NCBI GenBank assembly: GCA_016223085.1
Contig: JACRPS010000003.1
Coordinates: forward strand, 434,001-498,000
Length of the DNA: 64,000 nt
Reading direction: 5' to 3'
Origin: Chloroflexota bacterium
Lineage (GTDB): Bacteria; Chloroflexota; Anaerolineae; Aggregatilineales; Phototrophicaceae
Shown piece by piece: positions 1 to 45,707 of the stretch. Every line of letters begins with the position of its first letter. The first letter of the stretch is position 1. The position numbers and the translations under genes were made by a program. Under the pieces are notes generated by a model, which saw only the letters and a list, made by a program, of their open reading frames with translations, ran no database searches and was not told the DNA's origin.

Positions 1-1029
1 CGTGACCGACGCAGCGAAAATACCCAGGATGCGCCGCAGTTCGGCTTCATCGGTGGTCAGTGGGTCTACCTCGAAGAAGTGGATGCGGTTGGCGGTGAGC
101 GTGCCCGTTTTGTCCAGGCACAGCACGTTGACGTTGCTCATGGACTCAACTGCATTGGACTGCTGGATGAGCGCCCCACTGCCGGCCATCCGCACCGCGC
201 CCATCGCATAGGCAATGCTAATCATAAAAAACAGGCCGTTGGGGATGAGGCCGGTCACCACTGCCGCGATGCGGGCGCTCTCGGTGGCAGGCAGGTTGGC
301 GACGAGGTTCGCCATGCCAAACAGAATACCCATCTGTACCGAGATCAGTACCAGCAGCCGGATGATGAGATCCACATCACGCTGCAGCGGCGTTTTGATC
401 TGCCGGAAGGCGCGCGCGCCGGACGTGAGCTTGTTTGCCACACTGTCCAGGCCAACCTTCGTCGCTTCGTAGCGGGCACTGCCGTTGACGCAGAATGTCC
501 CGGAATACACCTCGTCGCCGGCCTGTTTTGGGATAAGATCAGATTCGCCGGTCAGCAGCGACTCGTCCACGTCCATTTTGCCGTCGCCAATCACCACGCC
601 GTCCACGACAATCTGATCGCCGGGGCGGGCAACCAGGATGTCGCCCAGGACAACTTCGGTCGGGTCAACCACTTTTTCCTGACCATCGCGGATGACTGTC
701 GCTTTCGGGCGGGTGAGCAGCGCGATTTTGTCGAGCGTATGTTTAGCCTTCATCTCCTGGATGATGCCGATCACGACGTTAAGCATGGCGATACCGACGG
801 ACATCAGCGCGTCGGTATACAGGCCAAGCGCCACCAGCACCAGGCCGATGCCAAACAGCACCATGTTGATGAACGTAAACACATTCTCGCGCAAAATCTG
901 GAGGTAAGACCGGCTCGTTTCCAGCCGGACGTTGTTGCCCTGGCCGTTCTGACGACGACGTGCCACCTCAGCTTCCGTGAGGCCGGTCCTGACTGCCACA
1001 TCTGGCATTGGTTCCGATACAAGCTGCAT
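1..1029 (-). CDS. Cation-transporting P-type ATPase, N-terminal part (cut by window edge)
   Basis: The minus-strand frame stays open from ATG 1029 to the window edge (343 codons). It encodes the front half of an E1-E2 ATPase. After a short cytoplasmic N-terminus there are two hydrophobic segments near residues 50-90, then the actuator domain with TGES at 160-163, another membrane pair, and the phosphorylation motif DKTGT with the acceptor Asp at residue 306. The N-terminus lacks CXXC metal-binding motifs, which argues against a Cu or Zn/Cd exporter. Overall it resembles CtpE-like or calcium/magnesium-type pumps, but the ion cannot be assigned from half a protein. AAGGA lies about 6 nt upstream of the chosen start. 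It is divergent from the Dps gene. Confidence 0.88.
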   Translation of the reverse strand, partial: MQLVSEPMPDVAVRTGLTEAEVARRRQNGQGNNVRLETSRSYLQILRENVFTFINMVLFGIGLVLVALGLYTDALMSVGIAMLNVVIGIIQEMKAKHTLDKIALLTRPKATVIRDGQEKVVDPTEVVLGDILVARPGDQIVVDGVVIGDGKMDVDESLLTGESDLIPKQAGDEVYSGTFCVNGSARYEATKVGLDSVANKLTSGARAFRQIKTPLQRDVDLIIRLLVLISVQMGILFGMANLVANLPATESARIAAVVTGLIPNGLFFMISIAYAMGAVRMAGSGALIQQSNAVESMSNVNVLCLDKTGTLTANRIHFFEVDPLTTDEAELRRILGIFAASVT

Positions 1030-1220
1030 ACAGGTTCCTTGGGTTGCACACTCTACTATATGGTGGTGTAGGGACAATCTACACTACGTTGATTCTGGTA
1101 TCCGGGTTGCGTCCGGCAAGTCCAGCGACCATTATAATAAAAATCTCATCAAAGCGTGATTTTGGTCTTATGTGGTCGGCCTACCCTGGGCCTGATACCA
1201 GCTATTCAGGAGGTGGTTTG

Positions 1221-1721
1221 ATGGGAAATTCAACGTTAACGCAACCAGGCCCAAACCTGGGTATCTCCCAGACTGGACGCATTGAACTGAATACCACGCT
1301 GAAGGTGCTGCTGGCGGACGAGTTTGTGCTGTACACCAAGCTGCGGAACTATCACTGGAACGTGCGTGGGCCAAACTTTATCGCGCTGCACCGGTTGATG
1401 GAAGAACAATATACCGAACTGGCCGAAATCATTGATGATGTTGCCGAACGCATCCGCCAATACGGCGAATTTGCGCCGGGCACGCTGGAGGAATTTAAGC
1501 AGCTCACCCGCCTGAACGAGCAGCCGGGCGAATACCCGGACTGGCGCACGATGGTAGCGAACCTGGTGGCCGACCACGAAAGCCTGATCCGCTCGCTGCG
1601 CGAGGACATCGAAAACATTGACGAGGATGTGGATGATGACGCTGTCGAAAGTTTCCTGAGCGACCTGATTGACCGGCATCAGAAAATGGCCTGGATGCTG
1701 CGGATGCACCTGGAAGAATAG
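1221..1721 (+). CDS. dps: Dps-family DNA-binding ferritin-like protein
   Basis: The 166-aa protein has the Dps signature: the NYHWNVRGPNF helix carries the first ferroxidase His, followed by a helix with the H-x(10)-D..DD-AERIR pattern. The four-helix ferritin-like fold is expected to assemble into a dodecamer that oxidises and stores iron and shields DNA from peroxide. The frame is open further upstream, but ATG 1221 is preceded by CAGGAGG at a good distance and gives the usual family length. The acidic C-terminus lacks the Lys-rich tail of DNA-binding E. coli Dps, so DNA binding is uncertain. A TATAAT at 1133-1138 could be its -10 box, but the -35 is poor. Confidence 0.95.
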   Translation: MGNSTLTQPGPNLGISQTGRIELNTTLKVLLADEFVLYTKLRNYHWNVRGPNFIALHRLMEEQYTELAEIIDDVAERIRQYGEFAPGTLEEFKQLTRLNEQPGEYPDWRTMVANLVADHESLIRSLREDIENIDEDVDDDAVESFLSDLIDRHQKMAWMLRMHLEE

Positions 1722-1896: not shown

Positions 1897-2919
1897 CTAC
1901 TGCGCCGCTGACAGCCACGTCCATAGATGCAGCACGTAGGCATCCGGCAGTTCTTCCCGGCTGAAAGCGGGCATCGTTTCGCTGCCGCGCCGCACCTGTT
2001 CGTAGAACGCATCCAGCGTCAGATCGCTGCCGCGCAGCGCCGGCTGGCCGTCCACCCCGCCGCCCGCATCCGCGCCGTGACAGAAGGCACAGCGCGAGGT
2101 GGCCCACACGGCAGCGCCCACGCGGGCATCGCCGCTTTCTGGCAGCAACTGCGGCGCGAACACAATTGCCTCGCGGCGTGGGACGGTGGGAATTGCCGTC
2201 TGCTCCGCTGTCAGGAATACGGTCAGACCAGCAACAACCAGCACGGTCATCAGTACGGCCAGCGGCACAAACAGCCGCTGGCGCCGGCTCACCTGTTCCG
2301 CTGACCGTGCTGGCGTTTCCAACTGGGCAGTATCCGGCTGCTGCCGGGCACGCCACAGGCCGAGCACCAGCAGTTCCCACAGCACAAGAAAAACCACAAA
2401 CAGCAGCGCGTGGTCGCTGTGGATGCTACGCGCCGTTGGAATCGTTTCCCCCGGCAGGCGGGATGTAACCGCGATGGGATTCCATAGCATCAGGCCAGTC
2501 AGCGCCAGAATAACAACGCTGATGACCACTACCAGATATTCAATTCGTAGGGCATAACGACCCTCTGGCGCGTTCGCTTTGAAGCCCAGGTTGTAAAGCA
2601 CCCGGTCAAGCAGGGCGCGCCAGTCGCGCAGGCGGGGCAGCAGTGCCAGGTGACGCCCCAGCACCCACCGCTGGTAGCTGACCGCAAGGACGTGATAAAT
2701 CGCCACCGCCAGCAGCAGCACAGCCAGCAGGCGGTGTAAAATGCGTGCGCTTTCAATGCCGCCCAGCAGTACCAACGTGATTTCGGCCCAGCGTTCCTGC
2801 GTGTAACGCTGCGGCAGACCAGTCAGCGCCAGCCCGACGACCGCCAGCACCAGCGCCAGCCGTTCAAATCGCGCCGCCGCCGAGAGGGGGCGGCTTTCCG
2901 GCTGCATCCGCTTCTCCAT
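1897..2919 (-). CDS. Membrane cytochrome b fused to a C-terminal monohaem cytochrome c
   Basis: This 340-aa protein has four to five hydrophobic segments in residues 20-230, with His residues placed as in the formate-dehydrogenase-gamma / cytochrome b561 type (for example the ARILHRLLAV and IYHVLAV helices and IHSDHALLFVV). Another transmembrane helix follows, then a class I cytochrome c domain with CAFCH at 277-281 and a probable axial Met at 316 (ETMP). It should take electrons from quinol in the membrane and pass them to its own periplasmic haem c. The start has GGGAGGG upstream and lies 4 bp after the preceding multihaem gene, so it is the last gene of that operon. The electron acceptor is unknown. 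Confidence 0.85.
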   Translation of the reverse strand: MEKRMQPESRPLSAAARFERLALVLAVVGLALTGLPQRYTQERWAEITLVLLGGIESARILHRLLAVLLLAVAIYHVLAVSYQRWVLGRHLALLPRLRDWRALLDRVLYNLGFKANAPEGRYALRIEYLVVVISVVILALTGLMLWNPIAVTSRLPGETIPTARSIHSDHALLFVVFLVLWELLVLGLWRARQQPDTAQLETPARSAEQVSRRQRLFVPLAVLMTVLVVAGLTVFLTAEQTAIPTVPRREAIVFAPQLLPESGDARVGAAVWATSRCAFCHGADAGGGVDGQPALRGSDLTLDAFYEQVRRGSETMPAFSREELPDAYVLHLWTWLSAAQ

Positions 2920-2922
2920 TGT

Positions 2923-4026
2923 CTACCCTCCCCTTCGCCGCAGCCGGCGGACCACGTCAGACACCACCACTAGCCCGACCAGACCGATCACCAGCGGCGT
3001 CAGCCAGTCGTACAGGCGGTTAGCCGCGAACAGCACCGGATGCGCCGCTGCTGTTGCTGGATAGTGTCCCAGCCAGGCATCGGGGAAACTGGTGCTGGCG
3101 CCGGGATGGCACTGCTGGCAGGTCGTGAGTAGCGTTTCCCGAATGGACGACGCGCCCCCGGCAGCCACCGGCTGGATGTTATGCACGCCGTGACAGTCGA
3201 AGCACACCGCCTTGTTGGTCGGCACGTCGGGCGTTTCGTGTTCAAACAACGCCACCGTCGAGCCGTGAAAATCGGTCAGGTAGCTATCAAACACCTGTGT
3301 GCTGATGTTGTATTTCCCCATCAACCCGGCGTCGGCATGGCAGCCGGCGCACAACTCCGGTGACCGCACCCGGAACAAGGTGGTCGTCGGATTTTGAATA
3401 TCATGTACGCCGTGACAGTTGATGCAGGTCGGCACATCCGGGTTATTCTCGTCCAGCAGCGCCGCGCCATGCACACTGTTCTGGTATTCCTCAAAAATCG
3501 CGCCGTGGCAGCGGCCACACGTCAATGACACCCGCTGGCGCGGCTCGTCCGGCGGCTGAATATCATGCCCCCCGTGACAGTCCACGCACACGGCGGCTTC
3601 CAGTCGCCCGGCGCGGAGTGCCGCGCCGTGGACGCTGTCCTGCGCGCGGGTATACTGGTCTTCATGGCAGTTCCGGCACACCGCATACCGTTCCAGCCGG
3701 AACTCGCGGGCGGTGCGGCTGGTCGAGGGTGGATGCGGAAAGCGGAAATTCGGATGGCAGTCGGCACAGGCCAGCGCGCCGTCCGGGTTGGCGTCGCCGT
3801 GAACGGACTGCGCCAGCACCGCCGGGTCCACCGTCAGCGGCAGCGTTTCGCCGCTGGGCAGATGCCATACCTGATCGGGCCGGCTGTGACACAACAGACA
3901 GTAGGCGTTGGACGCGGGCGGCGGTTCGTCACCCTCCTCCTGGACGGCCAGCACCGGAGCCGCCAGCCCAAACAGCAGGAGCAGGCACGCGATCATCCCA
4001 GCCGTGAGCGGCACTTTTGTGGTCAT
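2923..4026 (-). CDS. Nine-haem c-type cytochrome, membrane-anchored
   Basis: The 367-aa protein has an N-terminal signal peptide and nine CXXCH motifs (CLLCH, CADCH, CRNCH, CVDCH, CGRCH, CINCH, CAGCH, CFDCH, CQQCH). It ends with a transmembrane helix followed by an Arg-rich tail, so the haems face outward. The repeated SVHGAAL/VCxDCHGxHDI pattern is that of doubled-CXXCH cytochromes related to NrfB/c554-type electron carriers. It lacks the CXXCK motif of NrfA nitrite reductase. It starts 4 bp after the 614-aa cytochrome and ends 4 bp before the cyt b gene, so the three are translationally close. A conductor role is most likely; a catalytic one cannot be excluded. Confidence 0.92.
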   Translation of the reverse strand: MTTKVPLTAGMIACLLLLFGLAAPVLAVQEEGDEPPPASNAYCLLCHSRPDQVWHLPSGETLPLTVDPAVLAQSVHGDANPDGALACADCHPNFRFPHPPSTSRTAREFRLERYAVCRNCHEDQYTRAQDSVHGAALRAGRLEAAVCVDCHGGHDIQPPDEPRQRVSLTCGRCHGAIFEEYQNSVHGAALLDENNPDVPTCINCHGVHDIQNPTTTLFRVRSPELCAGCHADAGLMGKYNISTQVFDSYLTDFHGSTVALFEHETPDVPTNKAVCFDCHGVHNIQPVAAGGASSIRETLLTTCQQCHPGASTSFPDAWLGHYPATAAAHPVLFAANRLYDWLTPLVIGLVGLVVVSDVVRRLRRRGG

Positions 4027-4030
4027 GATG

Positions 4031-5875
4031 TCACGCCTCCCGCCCGGTTTGCGGTGAACGCCGGAAGGGACGGAAGACCACTACCGCCCCAACCAGTAAA
4101 ATCAGCACGATCAGGCCCGTGAGGATCACCGTCATCGGCCTTACCCCACTGTGCACCGGCGCTTCCGCGCTCACGATCACCACCTCCGGCGCGGACGCTG
4201 TCGCCGTTGGCGCCGGCGCTTCGGTCGGTTGCAGGCTCGCGCCCGGCACACTAAGCTGCGTCAGCATCCCGGCTGCCGCGTCCAGCAACGCATCGGCATA
4301 GGTGTAGTTGTGGAAGCCCTGGCTGCCGTCGTTCTGGACAAACAGCAGCGCGGCAACCGCCCGGTCATACAACGCCGCCGGCTCAGCGCCCGCCTCAGGC
4401 TGTGGGATGGTGGATACCCGCGCCCAGGCGGTGGACAGCCGTGACCGGATGGCCGCCTGCGTGTCCCGCACCAGCGATTGCAGATCGGCGGGGGTCAAAT
4501 CCTCGTGACAGGTAGAGCAGGCATCCGGCGGCGTGTCTTCGGCAGCGCCGGGCACAACCGGGCGCATGGTATGGCTGGCGAGGCTGAAACCGCCAACAGG
4601 TACTTCTAGCATGTGGCAGGTCGTGCAGCGCGGGCCGTTCTCGGCGGCAAAGTGCGCCGACGGTATCCCATCCACCGTGTCAACCAGCGTTTGCCCCTGG
4701 AACAGCTCGACCGAGGGGTGATGAATGGTCGCTGTCAGCGGCGTATTCTGGTGGCAGGAGGCGCACAGGGCGTTGGGTTCGTCCACCAGCAGGAAATCCG
4801 CCTGCTGGGCGTGATGTGGGCTGTGGCAGGTGATGCAGGTGACGCCGAAGCGCGCCCTGTCCAACGTCAGCGGCGGCGGCGCTTCCCCCAGCCGTTCGCC
4901 TTCGTCGTACAGCGCACGCAGACGCTGGTCGAGCGCGTAGTCCCCGCTGTGGCACTGCAAGCAACCGTCCTGCGCCTGATCGCTGCCAATCATTGTCTCC
5001 AGCGCGCTGGCATGGCCAGATGCCAGCCACTCGTTAAACTGCATGTTGTTGTGCCGACCATGCCCGCTGCCCCACCAGCTTTCAGCGTCGTCAGTAGCGG
5101 CCAGCGTAAAAATATCCTCGTGCAGCAAGTCCGTGCCGGGGCGGTAATTGACCGGGTACAGCCGTCCGCTTTCCGGCTCGGTGCCCCGGCTGTGACACTG
5201 GCCGCACACCTGCGCATCCGGCGTCAGCACAATCGCAGCGTGGATGTCCGCCAGTTCATCGTCATCTGGCCGGCGTCCGGCGTCGTCGGCCACTTCCACG
5301 TGAACGCTGCCCGGCCCGTGACAGGCTTCGCACTGCACGCCGTCGTCTTCCCAGCGACCACGCTCGACGTTCAGGCCGGTGGTGTGGCAGCCGGCGCAGC
5401 TTTGCAGCCAGTCATAAGCCGGGGCCGGCCACTCGTCCGCCAGCGCCAGCGGCTGCCAGCTTTGTGACACCGTATTCCATTCCGCGGGCAGCACCGCATA
5501 TTCCCGGTCGCCCAGTTCCACCAGATACCGCTGCGCGTACCGGCCCGCGCCGACGATGTAAACAATGTCGTCTGCCGTGAAGGGACGCGGCTCGCTCTCG
5601 CCGGGGAACTGGACAGTGCGTACGTCCTCACCCTGGGCGAAATCGCCCAGGATGGCGTCCTTGTCGTCTTCAACATCCTGTAGAGCCAAAGCATGGAGGG
5701 TATCAGCATGGGGGCGCGCCAGATCGCGGTGGCACGAACTGCATTCGCGCGCGCCGACGTAATCGGCATCTTCCAGGTCCTGCGCGCGAACCGGCTCGCC
5801 ACTGGCGTAAAAGCCCAAGGCAACGAAACTGAACCCCACAACGACCAGTACCCAGATACCAACGGTTCGGCGCAT
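4031..5875 (-). CDS. Large nine-haem c-type cytochrome, membrane-anchored
   Basis: This 614-aa protein has a signal sequence or anchor in residues 1-32, nine CXXCH sites (CSSCH, CAGCH, CEACH, CGQCH, CLQCH, CITCH, CASCH, CTTCH, CSTCH) and a transmembrane helix near 580-600. Motifs such as CEACHGPGSVH and CITCHSPHH are typical of the cytochrome c554 / multihaem hydroxylamine-oxidoreductase-like superfamily. About 180 residues at the N-terminus without haem sites (after CSSCH) form a non-haem insert. No cross-linking Tyr or catalytic haem can be assigned, so the substrate is unknown. It shares an operon with the neighbouring cytochromes. Confidence 0.9.
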   Translation of the reverse strand: MRRTVGIWVLVVVGFSFVALGFYASGEPVRAQDLEDADYVGARECSSCHRDLARPHADTLHALALQDVEDDKDAILGDFAQGEDVRTVQFPGESEPRPFTADDIVYIVGAGRYAQRYLVELGDREYAVLPAEWNTVSQSWQPLALADEWPAPAYDWLQSCAGCHTTGLNVERGRWEDDGVQCEACHGPGSVHVEVADDAGRRPDDDELADIHAAIVLTPDAQVCGQCHSRGTEPESGRLYPVNYRPGTDLLHEDIFTLAATDDAESWWGSGHGRHNNMQFNEWLASGHASALETMIGSDQAQDGCLQCHSGDYALDQRLRALYDEGERLGEAPPPLTLDRARFGVTCITCHSPHHAQQADFLLVDEPNALCASCHQNTPLTATIHHPSVELFQGQTLVDTVDGIPSAHFAAENGPRCTTCHMLEVPVGGFSLASHTMRPVVPGAAEDTPPDACSTCHEDLTPADLQSLVRDTQAAIRSRLSTAWARVSTIPQPEAGAEPAALYDRAVAALLFVQNDGSQGFHNYTYADALLDAAAGMLTQLSVPGASLQPTEAPAPTATASAPEVVIVSAEAPVHSGVRPMTVILTGLIVLILLVGAVVVFRPFRRSPQTGREA

Positions 5876-5922
5876 CGCGTTTTATCCTAATGGTTAAATG
5901 AAAACCGATACATAGATTTTTC

Positions 5923-5951
5923 GTAGGGGCGAACCGCCGGTTCGCCCCTAC
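5923..5951. repeat. Dispersed GTAGGGG palindrome, copy 2
   Basis: A perfect 29-bp palindrome (arms GTAGGGGCGAACCG and CGGTTCGCCCCTAC) sits in the 177-bp gap between the triheme and the 614-aa cytochrome genes, inside the likely transcript. Confidence 0.88.
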
Positions 5952-6052
5952 ATTCTATGAATCTGTTTTCGGTCATCCATAAGATCGCCAACCAGCTTTG
6001 GACAAACTGCCGAAACGGGTGGTGACAGGACCTGCCCTGCCAACGCCCCCGG

Positions 6053-6610
6053 TCAATTGGTTTCGTTGTCTCCCGCCTGTCGCGCCCGGTTTGCATTCCC
6101 GCGAAAATTCCCCGGCGCGTGGCAGGTTTTACAGAAGTTGTTTAGCTCGTTCCAGACGGGCTGTTCCAGATTATACCCCGCCGCGTGGCACAGGCCACAG
6201 GTGTTTAGCCAGTCATTGGACTGGCCTGCCAGCCGGGTTAGGTTGCCGTCCGCCAGCAACGAATACGCTTCACCCGCCTGCACAATGTATCGCTGTTGGC
6301 CCACACCGGCTAACGGCTGTTCCGGCAGATAAGCGGGACTGTCCGCCAGCAACCGTGCCGTTTCCACACGGAGATACGCTGCCGCCGCGCTCACGCTGGC
6401 CGCCTGAAGCCGCAGCAGGCTCACCGCCGGGTCGCAGTAGCGATGCGACTCCGGGTGGCAGTCCAGACACACAGCTGCGCCAGAATCACCGGTCAAATCG
6501 GCTGCCGGGAACAGGGGTTCGGACATGGAATGCGCTATCACTGCCAGTGCCACCGCCAAAAGGAGGGTGACAAGGCCGACCACAAATATCAGATAGTACC
6601 AGAACTTCAA
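6053..6610 (-). CDS. Membrane-anchored triheme c-type cytochrome
   Basis: The 185-aa protein starts with an uncleaved transmembrane anchor (residues 5-28). It has three CXXCH motifs: CLDCH near residue 48, then CGLCH and CKTCH near 138 and 158. Its second half (QSNDWLNTCGLCH..GYN) resembles the N-terminal region of the large neighbour, where SCAGCHTTGLN follows a similar Trp-rich stretch. This suggests it is a truncated paralogue or dedicated partner of that protein. It is the first cytochrome after the response-regulator gene (185-bp gap) on the same strand and is probably under its control. Confidence 0.88.
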   Translation of the reverse strand: MKFWYYLIFVVGLVTLLLAVALAVIAHSMSEPLFPAADLTGDSGAAVCLDCHPESHRYCDPAVSLLRLQAASVSAAAAYLRVETARLLADSPAYLPEQPLAGVGQQRYIVQAGEAYSLLADGNLTRLAGQSNDWLNTCGLCHAAGYNLEQPVWNELNNFCKTCHAPGNFRGNANRARQAGDNETN

Positions 6611-6795
6611 ACGACCACACGCCCTACTCGGCCAGGAATCGCCAGATTGGTTGGCGCAACGGACTGCCCTGCCGGCAGCTATTGTTCCCCGGCCCTCGAT
6701 GCTTCCCGTTATTGTCCCGTAGGAATGATACCTGCGTAATCATTCACGCGGATGATTCGCCGTCCACCGCGAGGATGATTCCAGCCGCGCCGGCA

Positions 6796-7464
6796 TCACT
6801 GAATCAGGCCATGCCGGACGGCCCATAGCGCGGCCTGCGTCCGGTCGGAGACATGCAGTTTTTCCAGGATGTGGCGCACATGGGTTTTGACGGTCGCCAC
6901 GCTGACGTTCAGCGTTTCCGCAATCACGGCGTTGTTCATGCCTGTTACCATCAGGCGCAGCACTTCGATTTCACGCTCCGACAGGCTTTCCACCGGCATC
7001 TCGGTTGGCTCCGGCTCTGGCGGGCTGTGGTCAACCGCCTGCGCCAGCGCCGCCTGCAGCAGGTCACGGTCAATCAGTTCATCGCCGGCGGCCACCGCCC
7101 GAACAGCGCGGACAATCTGCTCCGGGTTGACTTCCTTCGACAGATAGCCGGACGCGCCGCTGCTGATGGCGCGTGCCAGATAACCGGGGTTGGCGTAGGT
7201 TGTCAGCATAATCACGCTGGTGCGGGGGGATACCGCCTTGATCTGTGGCAGGGCCTGCAGGCCGTCGCCATCCCGCATCCGAATGTCCAGCAGAATCACA
7301 TCCGGTTGCATCTGTTTTGCCAGTTCAACCGCCGCCGCGCCGCTGTCCGCTTCGCCCACTACCTCGATGCCGGGCCGTGTCAGCAGGCCGCGCAGCCCTT
7401 CCCGCACGATACCGTGATCGTCCACAATCGCCACGCGGATCACCGCGTCGCCAGTTTCGTTCAC
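6796..7464 (-). CDS. NarL/LuxR-type response regulator
   Basis: A 222-aa two-domain regulator. The receiver domain (residues 9-125) has the acidic pair DD at 15-16, phospho-acceptor Asp60 in ILLDIRM and the conserved Lys in YLSKE. After a Pro/Glu linker comes a LuxR-type HTH (about 155-220) with LSEREIEVLRLM and VKTHVRHIL. It starts 5 bp after the sensor kinase stop, so the two form a cognate pair. Its position, directly upstream of the cytochrome genes and beside the divergent NapC-like gene, suggests it controls this respiratory locus. That is an inference from position. Confidence 0.95.
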   Translation of the reverse strand: MNETGDAVIRVAIVDDHGIVREGLRGLLTRPGIEVVGEADSGAAAVELAKQMQPDVILLDIRMRDGDGLQALPQIKAVSPRTSVIMLTTYANPGYLARAISSGASGYLSKEVNPEQIVRAVRAVAAGDELIDRDLLQAALAQAVDHSPPEPEPTEMPVESLSEREIEVLRLMVTGMNNAVIAETLNVSVATVKTHVRHILEKLHVSDRTQAALWAVRHGLIQ

Positions 7465-7469
7465 AGGCG

Positions 7470-9305
7470 CTACTCCTCCACTTCACACGGAACCCAGACT
7501 TCGACAGTCGTTCCACTGCCGGGGGCGCTGGTGATGGTGCAGTGGCCGTCAATCAGGTGGGCGCGTTCGCGCATGGTGGTGATGCCCATGCCGCGATTGC
7601 GTTCCGGTAACGCCGCCGGGTTAAAACCGCGTCCGTTGTCGCGGATGGTCAGCAGCAGGCCATCGCTGTTGCTCAGGTGGACGCTGACCTCGGTCGCCTG
7701 GGCATGTTTACGGATGTTGTTTAACGCTTCCTGGGCGACGCGGTAGAGGGTCACGCTGACCGTTTTATCCGGTTCCGACGAGAGATGGTCCACTTCAAAG
7801 TGCAGCTTCCAGCCGACCGACTGCGACACCGAGTAGGCCGTTTCCTCCAGCGCTGCCACCAGCCCCAGGTCATCCAGCACTGCCGGGCGCAATCCCTCGA
7901 TGATGCGCCGCCCCTCGGCAATCGCTTCACTCAGCGCGTCGCAGCCGCGCTGCAAACTCGCTGCGGTGCTGCATCCCTCGATACCGCACTGCTGGCGGAA
8001 GTTCGTCAGGTGGAAGCGCGCCCCGACCATCTGCTGAATCAGACCGTCGTGCAGGTCAAACGCCACCAGCTTCCGTTCTTCTTCCTGTGCTGTAATCAAC
8101 TGTTCAATCAGCCGCCGCTGCTTCTGGCGCTTTCGGTCCAGTTCCTGCGCCATGTTGTGGAAAGCGATGTCCAGCGCGCCGATTTCGTCCGGTCGACTGC
8201 GTTTGGGCAGCGCCGGAACAACGCCATCCCGCCCGAACTGCTCCACCCGGCGTTTTAAATCCAGAATCGGCGTGACAATCCGTTCGCTGGCGATCAGTGC
8301 CAGCGCCAGCGTCGTTAAAAATGTTCCCAGCAGAAAAATGGCAACCGTATAGTGAAAATTCGTAATATCCTTAAACAATACCGCTTTAGGCGTGTCATGG
8401 TAAACCACCCAGTAGCGGTCGGGGCGCGCGGCGGTGGGATAAACCGTGTTGTACACCAGCACGTTCGCGTCGGTTTCGAACACGCCGGCACCACCCTTTA
8501 ACAGTTCAGTCGCCTGGGGGTAGACCGCCTCAAAGTGCTGCCGCTGCACGGGTGGCGCGGGCATATCCGTATTCAGATACCGGTCAGAATACAGCAGGAA
8601 GTAGCCATCCTGGTCAAACACCGCCCAGCTATCCTGCCCCGCTTTGTAGGCCACCAGATCACCCAGCAGATGCGCCGCGTGCAGGCTGATGGCGATCACG
8701 CCGTCGTTGTTGTCCAGCTTGAGCGCGAACCGGATGACCGGAATGTAGGCGACCTCGCCGCCGCGTACGCTGGCTTCCACATCGAGCGACGATACAAACA
8801 CGTCACCATCGGACAGCCGCATCGCCTCGCGGAAGTATGGCGCGCTCTGGCGATTGAACCGCTCGCCATCCGGCACGATGCGCGCCGCGTCGTCATCAAA
8901 ATCCACCCGCACGACTTCATTGCCATCGGCGTCCAGATACTGAATCTGGTAATAGCCGGGGTGCGTGGCAGACAGCACCAGCAAATCCTGCGCCGCCTCG
9001 TTGCGCCACACCCGGACGGCTTCCGTATCATCGGCCTGATTTTTTAACGACCGGAGCATGCGAACGCTGCGCAGGTTACTGATTAAAAAGGCGTCGCCGC
9101 GCGCGTCTTCGAGCACATCCACAACATGTTTGGCCTGAAGATGCACTTCGTGTACCAGGCGCTGCACTACCTGGGGCACCAGCGCGTTATTGGTAAAAAA
9201 GTGGTCGTACAGGCCGATGCCGCCCAGCGGCAGCAGCACCAGCAGTAAAAACACCACCACCAGTCTGGCTTGCAGACCGTACAGGCGCAAATGTCGCAGT
9301 ATCAT
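7470..9305 (-). CDS. Sensor histidine kinase, HisKA_3 / NarX-like
   Basis: A 611-aa kinase with a transmembrane helix near residues 13-35, then a periplasmic sensory region of about 290 residues with a Cache-like pattern ending in YWVVYHDT. A second helix lies near 325-345, followed by HAMP (IVTPILDLKRRVEQF) and HisKA_3 with the phospho-acceptor His in FDLHDGLIQQ. The HATPase domain has NNIRKHA, DNGRGF and GMGITTMRERA. ATG 9305 is chosen over the in-frame TTG at 9308. The Cache-like input predicts a small periplasmic ligand. A NarX P-box is not evident, so nitrate sensing should not be assumed. Confidence 0.93.
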   Translation of the reverse strand: MILRHLRLYGLQARLVVVFLLLVLLPLGGIGLYDHFFTNNALVPQVVQRLVHEVHLQAKHVVDVLEDARGDAFLISNLRSVRMLRSLKNQADDTEAVRVWRNEAAQDLLVLSATHPGYYQIQYLDADGNEVVRVDFDDDAARIVPDGERFNRQSAPYFREAMRLSDGDVFVSSLDVEASVRGGEVAYIPVIRFALKLDNNDGVIAISLHAAHLLGDLVAYKAGQDSWAVFDQDGYFLLYSDRYLNTDMPAPPVQRQHFEAVYPQATELLKGGAGVFETDANVLVYNTVYPTAARPDRYWVVYHDTPKAVLFKDITNFHYTVAIFLLGTFLTTLALALIASERIVTPILDLKRRVEQFGRDGVVPALPKRSRPDEIGALDIAFHNMAQELDRKRQKQRRLIEQLITAQEEERKLVAFDLHDGLIQQMVGARFHLTNFRQQCGIEGCSTAASLQRGCDALSEAIAEGRRIIEGLRPAVLDDLGLVAALEETAYSVSQSVGWKLHFEVDHLSSEPDKTVSVTLYRVAQEALNNIRKHAQATEVSVHLSNSDGLLLTIRDNGRGFNPAALPERNRGMGITTMRERAHLIDGHCTITSAPGSGTTVEVWVPCEVEE

Positions 9306-9481
9306 CAACCAACCCCTTCACTCTATCATCACCCTGCCCCGCTCCCCGGATAAGTTCAGCCCGTCCCAAATCAGCTTACCAATAAGGATGCATTCCGGCA
9401 GGGGCACGGCGACACTAACGGCTGTGGTGTCGTTGGCTCAAGAGGGAATCCGTTACTGTTAAGTTTCCACCTTTTGCGGAT

Positions 9482-9527
9482 TTGTGACATATAACTTTTG
9501 TCACTTGTGCGAGACGCAAATTATAAT
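9482..9527 (+). promoter_or_regulatory. Promoter and inverted repeat upstream of the NapC-like cytochrome
   Basis: TTGTCA (9498-9503), an 18-bp spacer and TATAAT (9522-9527) form a good sigma-70-type promoter reading toward the cytochrome at 9639. Inverted half-sites TTGTGAC and GTCAC flank and overlap the -35, as expected for an operator. The 333-bp divergent gap between the kinase and the cytochrome holds no gene. Confidence 0.6.
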
Positions 9528-9638
9528 CAAAATCAATAGGCAAGGACGTTTGCCTGCGCAGACAGGCCGACAGCAGGGGAAACACCCACCCTGACTGTCC
9601 GGCGTTGCCTAAAATACCCATGCAGGAGGAATTTGCCC

Positions 9639-11297
9639 ATGCACCGCCTCCGACGTTTTTTTGCTCACCGTACACTGCGGGATTTATTACCTTTTGGTCT
9701 GGTCGGCGCGGGCCTGGTTGTGATCCTGCTGGCCGTTCCCCCCGCCTGGGAATACAGCAACTCCCCCGCTTTCTGCGGCACCACCTGCCACACCATGCCG
9801 CCGGAATACAGCACCTATCTGGTTTCGCCCCATGCGCGAACCCTGTGTGTGGACTGCCACATCGGGCGCGATCTGATTCTGGTGCAGGCCTTCCGCAAGG
9901 CTGGACACATGCGGCTGGTAGTGGATACGGTGCTGCAAAATTACGAACTGCCTATCCGCACGGCGGAAATGCGACCGGCGCGTGAAACCTGCGAGATGTG
10001 CCACTCGCCAGAAAAATTCTCCGACGACAGCCTGCGCGTCGTCCATAGCTTTGAGGACAACCGCACCAACGACCCCTACAGCATTTACCTGCTGATGCAT
10101 ACCGGCGGCGGCAGCCAGCGCGAAGGGCTGGGGCGCGGCATCCACTGGCACATCGAAAACAAAATCTCGTACATCGCGCTTGACCCGGAACAGCAGGAAA
10201 TCCCCTGGGTGCGCGTGGAAACCGCCGACGGCCAGACAGTGGATTACAACGCTGTCAATTCGCCGGTGGACACGGCCAATCTCGACAAGTACGAACTGCA
10301 CGAGATGGACTGCATCACCTGTCACAACCGGATCGCGCACCTGATTAAAACCCCAACGCGGGCGGTAGACCAGGCGTTGTATCTGGGCGACCTCTCGCGC
10401 GAGATTCCATTCATCCGCACCCGCGCCGTCGAACTGCTGTCCGCCCCGTATGAAACGACGGCGGAGGCAATGCAGGCGTTTGCGTCGCTTGATTCGTACT
10501 ACCGCGACAACTATGCCGAGTTTTACGCCGAGGGGAAAGAGCAGGTGCAGCAGGCGATTACGCTGCTGGAGACGCTGTACCGGGAGAGCAACTACCCCGA
10601 ACAGGAATTAAGCTGGAACACCCATCCCAATAATACCGGCCATCGCGATGCACCAGGGTGCTTCCGCTGCCACGATGGACAGCACTTCAGCGAAGCCGGC
10701 GAGGTGATTCGGCTGGAGTGCAACCTGTGCCACTCCATCCCCCAGGTAGTGCGCCCCGGCGAAATTGAGCCGATGCTGCCGTTGACTACCGGCATCGAGC
10801 CATCGTCGCACCTTGACTCGACCTGGATCAGCCGCCACCGCACTGAGTTCGACGCGACCTGTTCCAACTGCCATACAACCACCAATCCGGGCGGCGTGGA
10901 CGACCAGAGCTTTTGCGCCAACAGCGGCTGTCATGGCGTGGAATGGCGCTTCGCCGGCTTTGACGCGCCCGGTCTGGCGACGATGCTGGGCATCTATCAG
11001 GTGGAGCCGGTGCCGCTGCTGGCGGATTTCGACGGCGACCCCACCTATGCTATCCTGCAGCCGTTCTTCGTGCAGGAGTGCGGCGGCTGTCACGGCCCGG
11101 TGCCATCGAAGGGGCTGCGCCTGACGGATTACGCCAGTTTGATGGCCGGCAGCGAAAGCGGCGCGGTGGTTGTGCCCGGCGCGCCGGAGCAGAGCAAGCT
11201 GCTGCAAGTGCTGCTGGAAGGGCACTTTGCCCAGCCGACCGAACACCAGATAGACTTGCTGGAAAGGTGGATTGCCAACGGCGCGCCCGCCGAATAG
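9639..11297 (+). CDS. NapC/NirT-like multihaem cytochrome with C-terminal cytochrome domain
   Basis: This 552-aa protein begins with a short cytoplasmic tail and a transmembrane helix (about 17-37). The NapC/NirT pattern SPAFCGTTCHTMPPEY follows, its first haem site having three residues between the cysteines, then CVDCH. Further sites are CEMCH, CITCH, CFRCH, CNLCH, CSNCH, a CX4CH site (CANSGCH) and CGGCH. The last 90 residues (ECGGCHGP...GLRLTDYASLMAG) match the planctomycete-type cytochrome module. NapC-like proteins oxidise membrane quinol and feed periplasmic enzymes. AGGAGG lies upstream of ATG 9639. It is divergent from the two-component pair. Confidence 0.9.
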   Translation: MHRLRRFFAHRTLRDLLPFGLVGAGLVVILLAVPPAWEYSNSPAFCGTTCHTMPPEYSTYLVSPHARTLCVDCHIGRDLILVQAFRKAGHMRLVVDTVLQNYELPIRTAEMRPARETCEMCHSPEKFSDDSLRVVHSFEDNRTNDPYSIYLLMHTGGGSQREGLGRGIHWHIENKISYIALDPEQQEIPWVRVETADGQTVDYNAVNSPVDTANLDKYELHEMDCITCHNRIAHLIKTPTRAVDQALYLGDLSREIPFIRTRAVELLSAPYETTAEAMQAFASLDSYYRDNYAEFYAEGKEQVQQAITLLETLYRESNYPEQELSWNTHPNNTGHRDAPGCFRCHDGQHFSEAGEVIRLECNLCHSIPQVVRPGEIEPMLPLTTGIEPSSHLDSTWISRHRTEFDATCSNCHTTTNPGGVDDQSFCANSGCHGVEWRFAGFDAPGLATMLGIYQVEPVPLLADFDGDPTYAILQPFFVQECGGCHGPVPSKGLRLTDYASLMAGSESGAVVVPGAPEQSKLLQVLLEGHFAQPTEHQIDLLERWIANGAPAE

Positions 11298-45599: not shown

Positions 45600-45613
45600 G
45601 TTCCTACTAGTCT

Positions 45614-45707
45614 GGGGGTGGATGTGTCCCGGTGGATGCCCCGGTCTTCAAAACCGGTGGTAGGCTGCACAGCAGGCTACGGTGGGTTCGACTCCCATCT
45701 ACTCCCG
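45614..45707 (+). tRNA. selC: tRNA-Sec (TCA), selenocysteine tRNA
   Basis: A 94-nt tRNA with an 8-bp acceptor stem (GGGGGTGG paired with CTACTCCC) plus a 5-bp T stem, the 13-bp coaxial stack of bacterial tRNA-Sec. The anticodon is TCA in CTTCAAA. The variable arm is long (GGTAGGCTGC..GCAGGCTACG), as SerRS and SelA recognise it, and the T-loop is TTCGACT. The discriminator is G. This shows the organism reads UGA as selenocysteine. No selA, selB or selD gene lies in the window. Confidence 0.95.

Follow-up and report, generated by a model that had tools for sequence, protein, structure and literature searches.

We describe a seven-gene locus at positions 1897–11297 of a 64,000-nucleotide stretch of DNA, hereafter the window, from a bacterium of the order Aggregatilineales (phylum Chloroflexota; contig JACRPS010000003.1, positions 434,001–498,000). 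Five genes for c-type cytochromes surround a two-component pair. The central gene (4031..5875, minus strand) encodes a nonahaem protein of 614 residues which, from its phmmer match to PDB entry 6I5B, its haem register and its AlphaFold2 model, is an OcwA-like terminal reductase. It is followed after 4 bases by the gene for a nonahaem carrier of 367 residues with DmsE/NrfB-like haem repeats (2923..4026, minus strand) and, 3 bases further on, by the gene for a 340-residue protein, here called b561-c, that joins a cytochrome b561-type membrane domain to a monohaem c domain (1897..2919, minus strand); these three genes look like a single transcript. Upstream, on the same strand, lie the genes for a small membrane-anchored trihaem protein of 185 residues (6053..6610, 177 bases from the OcwA-like gene), a NarL-family response regulator of 222 residues (6796..7464) and a sensor histidine kinase of 612 residues (7470..9308). 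The seventh gene, transcribed divergently from the rest (9633..11297, plus strand), encodes a nine-site protein of 554 residues with an NrfH/NapC-type N-terminal domain and a C-terminal PSCyt1 domain.

By motif count there is one haem site in the 340-residue protein, nine in each of the 367-, 614- and 554-residue proteins and three in the 185-residue protein, making 31 sites from 29 CXXCH motifs, one CX3CH and one CX4CH. This confirms the five cytochrome genes (1, 9, 9, 3 and 9 sites, about 31 haems) that an initial annotation of the window had reported around a two-component pair, and all seven genes lie where it had placed them. Both variant motifs belong to the 554-residue protein, which has seven CXXCH together with a CX3CH (CGTTCH, residue 48) and a CX4CH (CANSGCH, residue 428); since both are kept in 11 of 11 aligned rows, it is fair to count them as haem sites. 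The same count bears out the statement that none of the five cytochromes contains CXXCK. Across all six frames of the window, just two further stop-to-stop frames longer than 60 codons contain any CXXCH. This scarcity, together with the recurrence of the gene order in other genomes, argues that the cluster of haem motifs is not due to chance.

The 614-residue protein and its relation to OcwA

The initial annotation had found no recognisable terminal reductase in the locus and no visible catalytic domain in its cytochromes. Neither statement holds for the 614-residue protein. Searched against PDB sequences with phmmer, its best match is 6I5B (E 6.1e-55, residues 35–539, 505 residues), followed by 6QVM (E 3.6e-25) and then, weakly, by cytochrome c554 and NrfA; a profile of 42 relatives matches 6I5B at 5.5e-99. 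Entry 6I5B is OcwA of Thermincola potens, a cell-surface terminal reductase of solved structure that reduces iron oxides, nitrite and hydroxylamine and exchanges electrons with electrodes (PMC6703420). The nine CXXCH motifs stand in one-to-one register with those of OcwA, with no departure in 36 aligned rows, OcwA included. An AlphaFold2 model of residues 32–545, built without haems from a 42-row alignment, has a mean predicted local distance difference test (pLDDT) score of 92.2 and a predicted template modelling (pTM) score of 0.91; an earlier model from 12 rows (pLDDT 55.7) was not used. Among the matches listed by Foldseek, OcwA comes first (template modelling scores 0.77/0.81), and VIA-align superposes 448 residues of the model on OcwA with Z 33.0, a root-mean-square deviation of 2.5 Å and 34% identity. 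The next among the matches listed are 6QVM (Z 23.5), NrfA (17.8), MccA (12.6) and hydroxylamine oxidoreductase (10.0); a remoter likeness in fold extends to the hydroxylamine oxidoreductases and hydrazine dehydrogenase (Z 9.5–10.0).

By this superposition the model has the OcwA fold, which is made up of a c554-like half, an NrfA-like half, an extra beta domain and a three-helix bundle. Along the chain, a signal or anchor precedes c554-like haems 1–4, NrfA-like haems 5–9 and the three-helix bundle, after which come a linker rich in proline, alanine and threonine and a C-terminal transmembrane helix. In predicted fold and in haem order the protein matches OcwA, and the terminal reductase reported as missing is present, as an OcwA-like protein. 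A close homologue with proven activity had been named in the annotation as something that would speak against its view; OcwA is such a homologue, at about 30–34% identity. The protein is not an NrfA, since it scores 21.0 bits against a cut-off of 24.1 on Cytochrom_C552 (PF02335) and is nonahaem, not pentahaem. A surface protein of the MtrC/OmcA type was also considered and rejected (27.9 bits against 209.3 on TIGR03507), and no protein of that type matches over the cut-off in the genome.

Two haems of OcwA, numbers 2 and 5, are five-coordinate, with a His-His pair facing the open side of each (PMC6703420). The two sites have fared differently in the Chloroflexota proteins, which we compared as b561-type rows (the gene followed downstream by a b561-type gene) and NrfC-type rows (accompanied by an NrfC gene). 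As a motif, rather than as coordination, the haem-5 pair is H385-H386 in the 614-residue protein and is kept in 26 of 26 b561-type rows of the 36-row alignment, the window included; the haem-5 HHP motif and the GxHNY of the three-helix bundle are both shared with OcwA. NrfC-type paralogues keep the haem-5 pair in three of six rows. At haem 2, the stretch is one residue shorter than in OcwA and reads NNMQF (residues 276–280); none of the 26 b561-type rows has the OcwA His-His there, all 26 having (N/Y)MQ(F/Y/L) in its place, and MQ is also found in all six NrfC-type rows. A wider set of 49 rows includes ten with HHQQY at haem 2, four of them from basal Chloroflexota (L049, L051, L055 and L057; L numbers designate fetched loci), while MQ occurs throughout the order's clade (21 of 21 rows) and in two rows outside it (L071, L092). 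Judged by these alignments, the change to MQ marks the order's clade without being unique to it. Given the missing haem-2 pair, we class the 614-residue protein as an OcwA-like variant and not as OcwA itself. Haem 9 of OcwA is coordinated by His and Met; one Met of an SHxM stretch, which may or may not correspond to that ligand, is common to this protein and OcwA and absent from most relatives. A C-terminal hydrophobic segment is present in all 26 b561-type rows, the window included, and in none of the six rows with an NrfC gene; it would be a membrane anchor, which OcwA lacks.

Partner genes, distribution and genomic setting

The 367-residue carrier matches the Pfam families Cytochrome_C7 and Cytochrom_c3_2 over cut-off and the NCBIfam models DmsE and NrfB below it; its nine motifs are kept in 17 of 17 rows, and it ends in a C-terminal hydrophobic stretch. 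The b561-c protein matches PF01292 (45.0 bits) and PF13442 (47.2 bits), both over cut-off, and three histidines of its membrane part, at residues 62, 76 and 167, do not vary in any of 11 aligned rows; it is probably a quinol-oxidising arm of the system. A second such arm is possibly provided by the 554-residue protein, which matches PF03264 and PF07635 over cut-off and the NrfH structure 2j7a at E 1.9e-7, and scores 49.1 bits against 134.2 on TIGR03153. Its first site has the form CX3CH.M in 10 of 11 rows; NrfH has a Met by haem 1. Adjoining the b561-c gene on the opposite strand is a ferritin-like gene (window 1008–1721) in which PF00210 begins at residue 98 of the open reading frame (ORF), so that the true start is probably later than called; the product may be of the Dps type.

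The kinase combines a Cache-like sensor (PF21623 over cut-off, dCache_1 below) with HisKA_3 (PF07730) and HATPase (PF02518) domains, both over cut-off, and a HAMP match below it, and the regulator matches PF00072 and PF00196 over cut-off. The earlier description of the two as a NarXL-like pair is right in the general sense that they belong to the NarL family, but both specific NCBIfam models are missed (NarL 167.4 bits against 250; NarX 81.8 against 578) and the sensor is Cache-like. Kinases of 36–74% and regulators of 58–90% identity adjoin Ocw genes in eight other fetched loci (L047, L050, L060, L154, L158, L165, L166 and L169), so the pairing is recurrent; the regulators of L060, L154 and L158 were missed by longest-ORF gene calling and recovered by tblastn at 68, 90 and 67% identity. 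A kinase lies upstream in only 4 of 25 fetched b561-type Ocw genes, and control by such a pair is therefore not general.

The trihaem protein resembles the haem 1–3 end of OcwA-like proteins. In its own genome it matches residues 146–219 of the 614-residue protein (E 3.5e-6), with a match that extends beyond the trihaem stop, and tblastn shows similarity to Ocw genes elsewhere, with E values as low as about 6e-8. Directly upstream of the Ocw gene, a small anchored protein with two CXXCH is encoded for four of the seven nonahaem genes that have an upstream kinase, as in the window, and for none of the 27 without; for the 25 b561-type genes the figure is two. Sequence conservation among these small proteins is poor, and no clear orthologue of the trihaem protein was found among these loci: BLASTP gives 1.2e-6 (L166) and 1.4e-5 (L154), 0.015 in one comparison and 0.05 or worse in another for the L060 counterpart, and 0.05 or worse for L158. 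The protein may be a redox sensor subunit or an adaptor for the kinase.

OcwA-like proteins are found in 60 of 154 genomes of the order at E <= 1e-40, paralogues and fused forms counted, and, at E <= 1e-20, in 36 out of a class-wide sample of 396 genomes. The annotation had proposed a search for the same gene order in other Chloroflexota, and at least three of the order's families (f1, f2 and f5) indeed have loci with the module of OcwA-like gene, nonahaem carrier and b561-c. Fifty Ocw genes were fetched, 34 of them nonahaem; counts refer to genes and not to loci, some loci holding two or three, and the loci, some of them cut short by a contig end, were selected from the best matches, so that the figures do not describe a random sample. 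Of these 34, 32 have a carrier and six an NrfC gene, and 25 are followed by a b561-type gene. A gene was counted as downstream if it was one of the first four kept ORFs after the Ocw gene, on its strand and no more than 4.5 kb away, genes being called by a greedy longest-ORF rule. Within 8 kb, an NrfH-type gene accompanies 18 of the 34, and 16 of the 25 b561-type genes, and a large decahaem gene accompanies ten of the 34. Two b561-type genes are partial (L154, 209 residues without a haem motif; L161, cut by a contig end); L160, on the same contig as L061, and L063, identical to L034, were left out. Disrupted or cut relatives with eight CXXCH (L048, L050) and fused or doubled forms with 13, 17 or 18 haems stand outside the nonahaem counts, and L050_9 and L048_18 were removed before tree building. 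In a quick tree without bootstrap, the window protein groups with relatives from the same module, and OcwA falls next to the order's clade with support of 84; given this value and the long branch and odd composition of OcwA, we draw no history from the tree.

The OcwA-like proteins that are doubled or carry extra haem regions have 13 haems in L044 and L045 and 18 in L051, L055 and L056. Behind the 17-haem forms of L037, L039, L041, L043, L059 and L062 come NrfC- and NrfD-like genes, and ahead of them a different two-component pair; the 17-haem forms of L052, L162 and L164 are without that upstream pair.

The host genome (6.03 Mb in 37 contigs, 97.85% complete, 4.44% contamination) has a second Ocw-like gene, 50% identical, with HY in place of HH at haem 5 (G000:C22:3481-5052; L033:3391-8444). 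After it come a nonahaem carrier, an iron–sulphur protein and NrfD; the arrangement recalls NrfABCD, the position of NrfA being taken by an OcwA-type protein. About 0.76 Mb from the locus, on the same contig, is a canonical NrfA (495.5 bits) with an adjoining NrfH-like gene (G000:C12:1202125-1204037; L150:7126-9038); a gene beside this pair may encode a Crp-type regulator. The NrfA has five CXXCH and no CXXCK, so the absence of CXXCK is not diagnostic and was rejected as an argument against a nitrite reductase; a CXXCH clade of NrfA has been described (PMC10716430). A search for Omp85, positive in 7 of 14 control genomes, detected none in this one, and the host cell is apparently monoderm, without an outer membrane.

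The annotation had also raised the possibility of a reductase gene just outside the window. To the left, where haem proteins only were sought, there is no kept ORF with CXXCH in 20 kb (L053), and to the right of the locus the next four genes tested encode an amidohydrolase, a luciferase-like protein, an aldehyde dehydrogenase and an aminotransferase. About 63 kb from the locus the genome encodes a decahaem protein that is 68% identical to one beside the corresponding locus of a relative. Such proteins are of about 700–740 residues in two similar halves (G000:C12:370398-372569; L034:11225-13456; L047:6582-8678; L060:2617-4770), and a sequence search gave no convincing solved relative (best E 0.019). 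ARAGORN places a selenocysteine tRNA at window positions 45613–45707.

Extracellular conduit or soluble-substrate enzyme

With moderate confidence, we read the locus as a conduit from quinol to the outside that ends in an OcwA-like reductase at the external surface of a monoderm cell, in which case a porin would be unneeded. Quinol would be oxidised by the b561-c protein, by the divergent NrfH-type nine-site protein, or by both. Electrons would then pass to the membrane-anchored nonahaem carrier and on to the anchored OcwA-like protein, whose haem chain would deliver them to an extracellular acceptor such as Fe(III) or Mn oxides, humic or flavin shuttles, an electrode or a partner cell. The Cache-domain two-component system would control the locus, and the trihaem protein may report redox state to it. 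Extracellular electron transfer was one of two guesses in the initial annotation and is the better supported; the other, an undescribed multihaem enzyme, is kept as a minor rival. In favour of the conduit are the best match to OcwA by sequence and by fold, the surface role described for OcwA and OmhA in mineral reduction, the recurrent partner genes, the C-terminal hydrophobic segments, the negative Omp85 search, the separate nrfHA pair and the electron transfer seen in the cultured Ardenticatena.

Several observations weigh against such a conduit. With identity at about 30%, a shift in function is possible, and the 614-residue protein lacks one of the two active-site motifs of OcwA. The strictly kept NrfA-like motif at haem 5 and the NrfC/NrfD-type partners of the paralogue would fit a soluble substrate, and OcwA itself also reduces nitrite and hydroxylamine (PMC6703420). 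The b561-type loci vary in composition, an NrfH-type gene being present for 16, an upstream kinase for 4 and a small haem protein for 2 of the 25 genes, and the locus in the window holds no wall-crossing cytochrome. The candidate proposed for Ardenticatena is a seven-haem protein, which may or may not be kin to the 614-residue protein.

The chief rival, unlikely in our judgement, is a membrane-bound reductase of soluble N-oxides (nitrite, hydroxylamine or nitric oxide), serving respiration or detoxification with haem 5 as its active site, the carrier and the b561 and NrfH proteins playing the parts of NrfB, NrfCD and NrfH. Haems 5–9 of OcwA superpose on NrfA and haem 5 is its second active site (PMC6703420); the haem-5 pair is invariant in the b561-type rows, and the second Ocw-like gene sits with a carrier, an iron–sulphur protein and NrfD. 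However, the kcat of OcwA for nitrite, 1 per minute, is below the value reported for NrfA (PMC6703420), the NrfC-type paralogues, whose partners are the most Nrf-like, keep the haem-5 pair in only half of their rows, and the genome already holds NrfHA, so that a locus for nitrite only would be redundant. Improbable, in our view, is a conduit of the same kind run inwards or between cells, with uptake from Fe(II), a cathode or a partner cell into the quinone pool. Ardenticatena, one of the Chloroflexi, gives cathodic as well as anodic current (PMC5808234), electron-taking enzymes (the hydroxylamine oxidoreductases and hydrazine dehydrogenase) share the fold distantly, and the ferritin-like gene adjoins the locus. 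Sequence sets no direction, though; the two closest solved relatives are described as acting in mineral reduction (PMC6703420, PMC7829351), and the ferritin-like gene, whose link to the locus is putative, is on the other strand. Very improbable is an undescribed enzyme for another soluble substrate, such as a sulphur, selenium or organic oxide, acting through a remodelled haem-2 pocket. The replacement of the haem-2 His-His by MQ throughout the b561- and NrfC-type rows, with HHQQY kept in 10 of the 49 wider rows, is what suggests it, but the simplest reading of that change is an active site lost or capped, not gained, and the neighbours tested point to no substrate.

Beyond the conduit itself, a wider proposal is offered tentatively, as possible rather than likely: a membrane-tethered, self-contained OcwA-type system may be the main extracellular electron route of a large monoderm order of Chloroflexota, with haem 2 closed or converted and the NrfA-like site kept, and with a division of labour within one cell, b561-type paralogues serving mineral reduction and NrfCD-type ones N-oxide chemistry.

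Comparison with known systems

OcwA is already known; what is new here, as far as the open-access matches listed extend, is the variant in a Chloroflexota locus, for none of those matches places OcwA-type proteins in this phylum. In the passages cited here, one report places nonahaems of Gram-negative bacteria in the OcwA subclade (PMC7829351), another describes Chloroflexi genomes that encode large multihaem cytochromes and no porin complexes, as well as Anaerolineae in anode communities (PMC7399161), and a third names both OcwA and Anaerolineae, with OcwA serving there as a control homologue only (PMC10716430). The locus offers a named, testable candidate with a solved homologue for the reports of Chloroflexota in current production and on anodes, and the spread of OcwA-like proteins over 60 of 154 genomes of the order makes them a usable marker. 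One published proposal derives octahaem enzymes from nonahaem ancestors resembling OcwA, either haem 2 or haem 5 having been lost (PMC6703420), and the variation seen here at both haems bears on it. The cultured filamentous Ardenticatena maritima 110S, presumably monoderm, has surface haem and both anodic and cathodic electron transfer; its candidate is a protein of 430 residues with seven haems, and surface cytochromes and minerals are the sole route proposed in the cited part of that report (PMC5808234).

NrfHA and NrfABCD resemble the system in the half of the protein bearing haems 5–9, in the three-helix bundle (Z 17.8) and in the NrfH-type input, and the paralogue has iron–sulphur (NrfC-like) and NrfD partners. 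The 614-residue protein differs in having four more haems and a PF02335 score below cut-off, in a genome with its own NrfHA. The undecahaem cytochrome 6QVM of Carboxydothermus ferrireducens is second-best by sequence (E 3.6e-25) and by fold (Z 23.5), and differs in its eleven haems; it is presumably OmhA. OmhA, a surface protein, reaches its largest share in cells grown with ferrihydrite, and it alone among the cytochromes is described as coming off when the cell surface was sheared and when biogenic magnetite was washed (PMC7829351). With the ImdcA-PdcA-CwcA-OcwA route of Thermincola (PMC7911101) the likeness is one of logic: a membrane multihaem quinol oxidase, a multihaem carrier and an OcwA-type end. 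By comparison, the system described here is one compact locus with b561-c and NrfH-type input, an anchored carrier and no wall cytochrome. To OcwA itself the 614-residue protein is alike in its nine CXXCH, its predicted fold, its haem-5 HHP motif and the GxHNY of its three-helix bundle; it differs in its linker and putative anchor and in the MQ at haem 2 and, unlike OcwA, it is encoded beside a carrier and a b561-c protein.

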